Positions 43,231-53,660 of a stretch of DNA of 64,000 nucleotides are shown here, piece after piece. Position 1 is the stretch's first letter, and each line of letters begins with the position of its first letter. This DNA is from Bifidobacterium breve (GTDB lineage Bacteria; Actinomycetota; Actinomycetes; Nanopelagicales; Nanopelagicaceae), in assembly GCA_945883725.1 (NCBI GenBank), contig CAMCXZ010000003.1:1-64000 (forward strand), in the 5' to 3' direction. Under the pieces are notes generated by a model, which was given only the letters and a program-made list of their open reading frames with translations, searched no databases and was not told where the DNA came from. Made by a program: the position numbers and the translations under genes.

Positions 43231-43716
43231 ATGCAATTACGTAAGGTTGCGATCAGTTTAATAATTACTGCTTCTCTCTCGACTTTAACTGCATGCGGTG
43301 CTGGCGAAAATGCAGCTGCTCGCAACATCACTAAAGTTACCGATGGCGCAGAAACTGAAGTCTTAACTGATACCAGCGCGCTGAAGCTTCGCGGCTTCTT
43401 ATTGGTTGCTCAGCCAGATGGCAGCGCAGTATTAGTTGGCACCATTATTAACGCAAACTCAACATCTGATTCATTGCTCGGAATCTCAGTAAATAATGTA
43501 CTTGCCACACTTGCCACTGAATCGAATGTGATTTCTGAAAATTTCCCAATGATTTTCGAAGGCGACTCAGCAAATGCAAAAGCAGTAATACCTGGCCTGG
43601 GCGTAAAAGCTGGCAACACAGTTGATGTTTCTTTCTTCTTTAATACTGCTGGCGTAGTTACCGTAAAAGCTATTGTGCGCGACAAGCGCGATACTTACGC
43701 CGGCGTAACTGCTTAA
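43231..43716 (+). CDS. Predicted lipoprotein of unknown function
   Basis: Lipobox LTAC in MQLRKVAISLIITASLSTLTACGAG; GGGAG just upstream of 43231. Confidence 0.75.
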   Translation: MQLRKVAISLIITASLSTLTACGAGENAAARNITKVTDGAETEVLTDTSALKLRGFLLVAQPDGSAVLVGTIINANSTSDSLLGISVNNVLATLATESNVISENFPMIFEGDSANAKAVIPGLGVKAGNTVDVSFFFNTAGVVTVKAIVRDKRDTYAGVTA

Positions 43717-44399
43717 GCTTCTAGTTTGTAACCAAGCCCGCGAACGGTCTGAATAAAAACTGGATTCGCTGGATCTGATTCAATTTTTGCACGCAAGCGC
43801 TTGATGTGAACGTCAAGCGTTTTGGTATCGCCCACGTAATCGCTTCCCCAAACCCGATCAATTAACTGCATACGTGTTAATACTCGGCCCGAGTTGCGCA
43901 TCAAGAATTCAAGTAACTCAAACTCCTTGAGCGGTAATGAGATTGATGCGTTATTGACGCTTACTTGGTGGCGGTCAACATCCATACGGACTGGCCCAGC
44001 AACGAGTGAGCCATTGTCTTCAGTAATTTCACCTAGGTCACTATGTCGGCGCAATACTGCTCGAATACGGGCAATTAGCTCTCGTGATGAATATGGCTTG
44101 GTGACGTAATCGTCGGCACCGAGTTCAAGCCCAACCACTTTATCAATTTCAGCATCTTTGGCAGTCAACATAATGATTGGTACCGCAGATCGGGTGCGTA
44201 ACTGCTTGCAAACTTCAGTTCCAGATAAGCCTGGCAACATCAAGTCAAGTAATACTAAATCGGCGCCATGCTTATCAAATAGTTCAACAGCTGCTGTACC
44301 AGTGTCGGCTACGACAACATCAAAGCCTTCTTTACCTAACAGATAGGCCAACGCCTCAGAAAAAGATTCTTCATCCTCGACCACTAAAATTCGGGTCAT
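43713..44399 (-). CDS. regX3: Response regulator, RegX3-like
   Basis: Receiver + OmpR winged helix (MTRILVVEDEESFSEALAYLL... VWGSDYVGDTKTLDVHIKRLRAKIE); next to senX3 and phoU. Confidence 0.9.
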   Translation of the reverse strand: MTRILVVEDEESFSEALAYLLGKEGFDVVVADTGTAAVELFDKHGADLVLLDLMLPGLSGTEVCKQLRTRSAVPIIMLTAKDAEIDKVVGLELGADDYVTKPYSSRELIARIRAVLRRHSDLGEITEDNGSLVAGPVRMDVDRHQVSVNNASISLPLKEFELLEFLMRNSGRVLTRMQLIDRVWGSDYVGDTKTLDVHIKRLRAKIESDPANPVFIQTVRGLGYKLEA

Positions 44400-45484
44400 T
44401 ATTTTTCCTCCTGGTTGGTTGATTGATAACTCTCAGATTCAATGAATTCTGGCAATCTGATTGTGAATGTGCTTCCGGAGCCTTCGCTGCTCCAGACCGA
44501 GATATCTCCGCCATGATTAGTGGCCACGTGCTTAACGATCGAAAGTCCTAGTCCAGTTCCGCCAGTTGCTCGCGAACGCGCCGGATCTACTCGATAGAAA
44601 CGCTCAAATATTCGTTCGATTTCTTTCTCTGGAATTCCAATGCCTTGATCGGTTACCGAGATCTCGACTAAATTATCTTTGCATGTTAACACGATCGCTA
44701 CTTGAGTTGAATCTGGGCTGTAGTTGATGGCATTTTCAATTAAATTGCTAATCGCCATCTCTAATTGACTGCGCTCGCCTAAAACAAAATGATCTGCGAT
44801 TGGCAGAAATACCAAAGATATTTTTCGTTTTTCGGCAGTTAGTCGAGATTCATCTATCGCTTCATTAATTAAGTCAGTCATTGAGTAAGGTTGTGCATTT
44901 TTAAGCGGGTCGCCATCTTGCAGGCGAGATAAGTTAATAATCTCCTGAACTAAATCAGTTAGACGCTTAGCTTCGATCTGCATTCGGCCGGCAAATTTTT
45001 CAACAGCTTCTTTATCGTCACTCGCTTCGAGGACTGCTTCACTTAAGATTGAAAGTGCTCCGATTGGAGTTTTAAGTTCATGCGAAATATTTGCCACAAA
45101 GTCACGTCTAATCGCATCGAGACGGCGGAATTCACTATCATCGAAAATTAGCGCAACGATTAATCCTTCAGAACCGATTGGTGAAACACGAACCAATAGA
45201 TCATGGGTTCCTTGGCCAATCGGACCACGTGGTAATTCAACGGTTGCTTCTTGATAAACATTTGAGCGGCGCACTGCGCGCACTAAATTAAGAAGTGGCG
45301 TCGAAACCAGGCGACCATCGCGAATCATTGATAGTGCGCCAGTGCCGGCAGAAGAGGAAAGTACTTGCTCACCCGGGGCGAGAATTAAATACTCAGCATC
45401 GAGAATTTCCAATAGCTCAAGCAATGAATCAGGAATTTCCCAGCCGCTTTCGACTGCTACTTCCTTATCTCGGCGCCAGAACAT
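44399..45484 (-). CDS. senX3: Sensor histidine kinase, SenX3-like, no N-terminal TM segments
   Basis: RRDFVANISHELKTPIGALSILSEAV; HATPase GIGIPEKEIERIFERFYRVDPARSRATGGTGLGL. Confidence 0.9.
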   Translation of the reverse strand: MFWRRDKEVAVESGWEIPDSLLELLEILDAEYLILAPGEQVLSSSAGTGALSMIRDGRLVSTPLLNLVRAVRRSNVYQEATVELPRGPIGQGTHDLLVRVSPIGSEGLIVALIFDDSEFRRLDAIRRDFVANISHELKTPIGALSILSEAVLEASDDKEAVEKFAGRMQIEAKRLTDLVQEIINLSRLQDGDPLKNAQPYSMTDLINEAIDESRLTAEKRKISLVFLPIADHFVLGERSQLEMAISNLIENAINYSPDSTQVAIVLTCKDNLVEISVTDQGIGIPEKEIERIFERFYRVDPARSRATGGTGLGLSIVKHVATNHGGDISVWSSEGSGSTFTIRLPEFIESESYQSTNQEEK

Positions 45485-45531
45485 AGCCTTATCGTAGAGA
45501 AGAGATCACTTGGAGTACTACCTAATCAGCC

Positions 45532-45588
45532 ATTTACACCCCTTTCACCCAGATATTTACCTCGGATTTGCGACCCGTTCACTTAATA
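45532..45588. promoter_or_regulatory. Array of five phased TTYAC-type motifs, candidate Pho/RegX3 box
   Basis: TTTAC 45533, TTCAC 45544, TTTAC 45556, TTTGC 45567, TTCAC 45578; spacing 11/12/11/11. Confidence 0.6.
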
Positions 45589-45619
45589 ACCCGCATCCGA
45601 AGTGCTGAAGGTCTAAGTT

Positions 45620-46282
45620 ATGCCCATGCGCGATTCCTTTCATGATGACTTAGACGGCATTGGTACTTCCCTTGTCGAAATGGGCCATCTGGTCAATAAA
45701 GCAATGGAGCGTGCGACCACTGCCCTACTAACCGCAGACCTTAAAGTTGCCGAAGAAATCATTTCCGAAGACGATGCAATTGATGACATGCAGCATGACA
45801 TTGAGGCGCGAGCGATAAATTTGATGGCCCGTCAACAACCAGTTGCCGGCGACCTGCGTACTTTGGTTACATCCCTTCGCATGAGTGCTGACCTAGAGCG
45901 CATGGGCGACTTGGCACATCACGTAGCTAAGTTAACTCGCATGCGTTACCCAGCTGCGGCTGTGCCACCAGAGCTTGTTCTAACTTTGCAAGAAATGGGT
46001 AATGTGACAGCTCGCATCACTCAAAAAGCAATTGGCGTTATTGAGTCACGCAATCTTGAAGCGGCGCTACAACTTGAAAAAGATGATGACGAGATGGACA
46101 TTCTGCACCGTCGTTTATTTGAAATCTTGCTTGATGATTCTTGGCCATATGGAATTGAAACCGCTATCGATATGACTCTGCTTGGCCGCTATTACGAGCG
46201 TTGCTCAGACCACGCAGTTTCGATTGCCCGCCGTGTCTATTACTTAGTCACCGGCGAGTACGCAAATTCTGCAAATAATTAA
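45620..46282 (+). CDS. phoU: Phosphate signalling protein PhoU
   Basis: MRDSFHDDLDGIGTSLVEMGHLVNKAMERATTALL; RYYERCSDHAVSIARRVYYLVTGE. Confidence 0.95.
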   Translation: MPMRDSFHDDLDGIGTSLVEMGHLVNKAMERATTALLTADLKVAEEIISEDDAIDDMQHDIEARAINLMARQQPVAGDLRTLVTSLRMSADLERMGDLAHHVAKLTRMRYPAAAVPPELVLTLQEMGNVTARITQKAIGVIESRNLEAALQLEKDDDEMDILHRRLFEILLDDSWPYGIETAIDMTLLGRYYERCSDHAVSIARRVYYLVTGEYANSANN

Positions 46283-52946: not shown

Positions 52947-53660
52947 ATGGCAAGAGTGTTGCTACTTACAAACACTCTAGGCGCGAGCGTTGAAGTTCTA
53001 CCTTCGCTAGCTTTGTTGCAACATCAAGTAAAAATTGTTCCGGCTGAAGCTAGTGTTCTAATTGATGTTCCTGAAACAGACATTTTGTTATTAGATGCTC
53101 GTCGCGAAATTCCAGCTGCAAAAAATTTAGCTAAGTTGCTACGTACCACAGGTTCAGGTGCACCAGTTATTGTCATAACGACTGAAGGTGGTTTATCTGC
53201 ACTGAGTGCCGAATGGGGCATTGACGATGTAATCCTTGATACTGCTGGTCCTGCAGAAGTTGATGCGCGTATTCGAATTGCAATTGGTGAATATGCAGCG
53301 CACCTTGCTGAAACTGATCCTGCCTCTGGTGAAATAAGAACTGGTGAAGTTTCAATCGATGAGAATAGTTACACAGCACGCATTAAAGGCCGTGCGCTGG
53401 ATTTAACTTTCAAAGAATTTGAATTATTGAAGTTTTTGGCTCAGCATCCAGGACGAGTATTTACCCGAGCTCAGTTGTTGCAAGAAATTTGGGGTTACGA
53501 TTATTTTGGCGGTACTCGCACTGTTGATGTGCATATCAGACGACTTCGTTCAAAGCTTGGCCCTGAGCACGAAGCAATTATCGGCACTGTGCGAAATGTG
53601 GGATACCGCTTTACGGTAACTAGCGCCATGAAAGATGCCCAAGTATCTGAGCGGATTTAG
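52947..53660 (+). CDS. glnR: Orphan response regulator GlnR
   Basis: [75 protein letters not shown]; upstream of mshD-like gene. Confidence 0.88.

Follow-up and report, generated by a model that had tools for sequence, protein, structure and literature searches.

The operators closest to the one described here are known from Streptomyces, where PhoP binds the phoRP–phoU intergenic region at units that run in the phoU direction, the last of them 4 nt from the phoU −35 (PMC6283541). The phoRP–phoU units of S. filipinensis have Ri values of 3.3, 10.6, −2.8 and 6.3 bits (PMC6283541). For Mycobacterium RegX3, a core GT/GTCAcc-n4-cG reported by Glover et al. (2007) is quoted in PMC7884335. The E. 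coli PhoB pho box consists of two or more 11-nt direct repeats with the core CTGTCAT and is bound head-to-tail (PMC4415409).

The repeats considered here lie in a window of 64 kb (the whole stretch of DNA analyzed) that comes from a Nanopelagicaceae MAG assembly of 1.34 Mb in 61 contigs. This family (acI-type actinobacteria) is abundant in fresh waters, which are often short of phosphate. Among named sequences, the closest to this phoU come from MAGs of freshwater actinobacteria, several of them classed under Candidatus Nanopelagicaceae or Planktophila. An earlier note on this DNA had described five TTYAC motifs, spaced by 11/12/11/11 nt, between divergent senX3-regX3 and phoU. The sequence agrees exactly as to positions and steps (TTTAC 45533, TTCAC 45544, TTTAC 45556, TTTGC 45567, TTCAC 45578, with unit starts at 45532/43/55/66/77), and the motifs do lie between divergent senX3-regX3 and phoU. 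The TTYAC pattern holds for four motifs but not for the one at 45567, so that TTYRC is the better description. All five motifs are on the + strand, which is the phoU strand (Table 1). Chains of five TTYRC motifs with gaps of 11–12 occur once on the + strand of the window and never on the − strand. In simulations, no chain of four or five motifs arose on either strand of 150 first-order Markov windows of 64 kb, and 2.7 Mb of simulated sequence had no five-motif chain.

Table 1. Positions of the repeat units, the neighboring genes and their predicted promoter elements in the window.
Feature	Position	Strand	Remarks
Whole array, five 11-nt units	45532..45587	+	Steps 11/12/11/11; direct repeats pointing toward phoU
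Unit 1, ATTTACACCCC	45532..45542	+	Weak, 0.7 bits; variable among near relatives
Unit 2, TTTCACCCAGA	45543..45553	+	Matches well (6.9 bits); carries a mutation in L154, one of the near relatives
Three-unit core: unit 3 ATTTACCTCGG, unit 4 ATTTGCGACCC, unit 5 GTTCACTTAAT	45555..45587	+	5.4, −2.6 and 11.0 bits, respectively; top 3-unit site of the window
phoU	45626..46282	+	Most likely start ATG 45626 (MRDSFHDD...); ORF extends to first ATG 45620
phoU −10-like hexamer, TAAGTT	45614..45619	+	6 nt before ATG 45626
Inferred phoU −35 position, CCGCAT	45591..45596	+	3 nt past unit 5; departs from the consensus, position set by the distance to the −10
senX3	44399..45484	−	Sensor histidine kinase (HisKA/HATPase)
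senX3 −10-like hexamer, TACGAT	45491..45496	−	6 nt before ATG 45484
regX3	43713..44399	−	OmpR/PhoB-family response regulator

PhoU scores above the equivalog cut-off of TIGR02135. The best solved relative of RegX3 is M. tuberculosis RegX3 (2oqr, E 6.8e-106), and the protein is 73% identical to the regulator adjoining Streptomyces phoU (L227, L228). Its recognition helix, TKTLDVHIKRLRAK, is near-invariant across family loci, and a divergent senX3 was detected at 107 of 109 phoU loci. The phoU start at ATG 45626 is favored because orthologs begin with MRD... and because TANNNT ends 6–7 nt ahead of the start in all 50 non-redundant family members (50/50); the same hexamer stands 6–7 nt ahead of the senX3 start in 44/50. 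With TANNNT at this distance from both starts, the phoU and senX3 transcripts are both probably leaderless. The intergenic space, from phoU ATG 45626 to senX3 ATG 45484, is 141 nt, in which the array spans about −94 to −39 relative to the inferred phoU start and about −48 to −103 relative to that of senX3. Window 52947–53660, about 8 kb from regX3, codes for a GlnR-like orphan regulator of the OmpR family; its best PDB matches are 8hih, 8hig and 8hml, which we take to be GlnR.

An 11-nt direct-repeat signal is kept in phoU upstream regions and is common to pstC and pstS promoters, as the proposal of the earlier note led one to expect. Pairs of GTTCACC units were scored in 59 non-redundant phoU upstream regions, and the best scores were averaged. 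The mean was highest at spacings of 11 nt (10.69) and 22 nt (10.63); at other spacings it was 8.7–9.1, and shuffled sequences gave 8.14 ± 0.12. Both peaks thus exceed the shuffled mean by over 20 of its standard deviations. The 3-unit score in the same regions was 14.25 vs. 10.77 ± 0.14 shuffled. No 11/22-nt peak was seen on the strand opposite phoU in the 59 upstream regions, nor in 279 other segments taken at random from the same loci. The upstream regions of pstC and pstS show an equivalent 11/22-nt peak, those of this genome's relatives included.

The genome was scanned by pattern searches with a reversed-pattern control, and a matrix scan covered both strands of the 64-kb window. Degenerate arrays in the genome were no more frequent than in the control (15 vs. 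16 matches), and a search for two GTTCACC units with 3 mismatches, too loose a pattern, gave 96 matches vs. 161 in the control. Since raw counts are not above control, significance rests on the positions of matches and on their conservation. The sole zero-mismatch TTYAYx3 array of the genome precedes pstC, and one-mismatch arrays precede pstS and phoU; about 0.0025 matches would be expected upstream of pstC, pstS and phoU (15 matches, about 450 nt, 2.68 million strand positions), and 3 were found. All of the exact TTYACx3 arrays found in 60 related genomes (4/4) sit before pstC or pstS. On the concern that random intergenic sites might carry such arrays at equal density, the raw degenerate counts do equal the control, but the best matches are pst/pho promoters. 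The matrix check proposed in the earlier note turned out in favor of the array: a matrix trained on the pstC and pstS sites only, with the phoU region excluded and units chosen by similarity to the Streptomyces consensus, puts the phoU array first in the window (3-unit, 13.9 vs. 10.4 bits; 5-unit, 20.4 vs. 14.9).

The arrangement of the pst genes varies within the family. In this genome (C1:86030-90371; L001, L003), the pst gene order begins with pstC and ends with pstS, and each of these two genes has a PHO-box array of its own upstream. In one branch of the family (L067-L072, L074, L075), pstC lies directly 3′ of phoU; in the branch of the window, the pst genes are elsewhere with arrays of their own. 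Altogether, pstC follows phoU directly in 18/101 family loci. Where it does so, the gene order suggests that the phoU operator is probably the operator of the pst operon too, which would fit a role in phosphate uptake for this part of the family.

Taken together, the sequence evidence makes us highly confident that the array is a PHO-box operator for phosphorylated RegX3. It is built of 11-nt direct repeats with a GTTCACC-like core, one step being 12; a similar motif stands before other phosphate genes (pst); and a RegX3/PhoP-type regulator with a matching recognition helix is encoded. Units 2, 3 and 5 match the core at 6, 5 and 6 of 7 positions, and units 1 and 4 at 4 and 3 of 7; the score of unit 4, below zero, counts against this reading. 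The extended RegX3-type array suggested in the earlier note can be retained as a predicted operator, supported by conservation of the phoU region, by the signal shared with pst and by the pst-trained matrix.

Under low phosphate, SenX3 phosphorylates RegX3, as is established for the family. By analogy with Streptomyces PhoP and E. coli PhoB, RegX3~P would occupy the 11-nt units head-to-tail, starting with the strongest (3 and 5) and then extending cooperatively to the weaker ones. From there, directly 5′ of the −35 inferred for the probably leaderless phoU promoter, it would activate phoU, which is the best-supported consequence of its binding. The bound array probably activates senX3-regX3 as well, and such autoregulation is likely on the Streptomyces analogy. 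This effect is less certain than that on phoU because the array faces phoU.

Not all units are equally conserved. Among 8 near-identical loci, the array is variable at 8/56 positions and its flanks at 36/85 (Fisher p = 0.0004). In the same loci, the TTYRC letters are invariant in units 3, 4 and 5, and units 1 and 2 each vary. In more distant relatives, mostly the phoU-proximal part alone is recognizable and the distal pair is mostly absent. As judged from these comparisons, the conserved part of the predicted operator is the phoU-proximal triple (45555–45587), and units 1–2 are an extension specific to near relatives. The 12-nt step is, by the same comparisons, the apparent edge of the conserved core, and the extension beyond it would be young or dispensable. 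The earlier note had considered that the 12-nt gap may be a boundary between two dimer sites. This idea is only partly supported: the gap does split the conserved three-unit core from the distal pair, but, since that pair is confined to near relatives, a two-dimer boundary does not hold generally. Pair-spacing scores in the 59 non-redundant phoU upstream regions have no 12-nt peak, so that a 12-nt step conserved throughout these regions can be rejected.

The alternative that survives best is one of partial function: either the three-unit core or just units 3 and 5 would be the RegX3 operator, and units 1–2 would be chance TTYAC matches roughly in phase. We give it a serious, though minority, share of the probability. 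The low score of unit 1, the variation of units 1 and 2 in near relatives (the TTYRC of units 3–5 never varies) and the usual absence of the distal pair from more distant relatives all agree with it. However, unit 2 is a good match, the five-motif chain was never reached in simulations, and variation in the whole array is below that of the flanks. A core-only operator is the main reservation on the five-unit claim. It is rather unlikely, in our estimation, that the 12-nt step separates two operators, the conserved core driving phoU and the fast-evolving distal pair tuning senX3-regX3 autoregulation. If this were true, the feedback strength of the kinase/regulator pair could evolve independently of PhoU.

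The RegX3 assignment itself also has a competitor, an operator for another OmpR-family regulator such as the GlnR-like protein or MtrA, whose sites are also able to repeat at about 11 nt. The genome has five OmpR-type DNA-binding domains, MtrA and the GlnR-like protein among them, and PhoP and GlnR share promoters in Streptomyces. The GlnR box has the consensus GTNAC-n6-GAAAC and the MtrA site is made of GTAAC-type repeats; however, neither GTNAC nor GAAAC occurs in the array on either strand, and neither does GTAAC. Because these half-sites are absent and the array motif also marks pstC and pstS, an operator of this kind is very unlikely; moreover, regX3 adjoins the array. Chance phasing in an AT-rich intergenic stretch, which the raw degenerate counts taken by themselves would allow, has a negligible probability and is ruled out by the simulations and by the strand and spacing controls, the strand-specific 11/22-nt signal being kept in orthologous regions and common to pst promoters.

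Beyond phoU and pst, a four-unit 11-nt array (TTTGC, TTCAC, TTCAC, TTTAG) at L046:1501-1538 (genome C14:15653-15690) precedes the ORF of a family-4 glycosyltransferase (L046:1573-2727). A periodic signal is kept in 13 non-redundant orthologs of this gene (3-unit mean 14.23 vs. 10.81 ± 0.28 shuffled), and we predict the glycosyltransferase to be a new Pho target, possibly serving phosphorus-free glycolipids. Another one-mismatch TTYAYx3 match, intergenic at genome C1:37517-37543 (L040), lies some 110 nt upstream of a gene of the WhiB family and may be due to chance.

A limited literature search found no description of a Nanopelagicaceae Pho operator. Operators of this kind, placed and oriented in this way, are already known from Streptomyces, as is the mechanism; what is new is the demonstration of one in Nanopelagicaceae sequence, the apparent core/extension anatomy, the putative leaderless geometry and the predicted family-4 glycosyltransferase target. 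A usable motif is also defined, 11-nt GTTCACC-like units that mark phoU, pstC and pstS across the family.

In comparison with E. coli, the likeness to the PhoB pho box lies in the 11-nt direct repeats and the difference in its core, CTGTCAT; in E. coli, phoU comes at the end of pstSCAB-phoU, but here it is divergent from the kinase gene. Mycobacterium RegX3 is a closely related regulator (2oqr), and its core, in the form quoted, fits the 11-nt unit; the site so quoted is shorter than the present array. The resemblance to Streptomyces phoRP–phoU extends to the gene pair, the divergent layout, the 11-nt direct repeats with a GTTCACC core directed toward phoU and the mixing of strong and very weak units. 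As in the Streptomyces-type bidirectional promoter, the kinase-regulator operon is divergent from phoU and the repeat peak is on the phoU strand only. The last unit is 4 nt from the phoU −35 in S. filipinensis; in the present array, its distance to the inferred −35 is 3 nt. The array described here has five units and one 12-nt step, whereas Streptomyces phoRP–phoU has four units in two boxes. Other differences from Streptomyces are the 141-nt intergenic space, the inferred leaderless starts of both genes and some AT-richer units (TTTAC).
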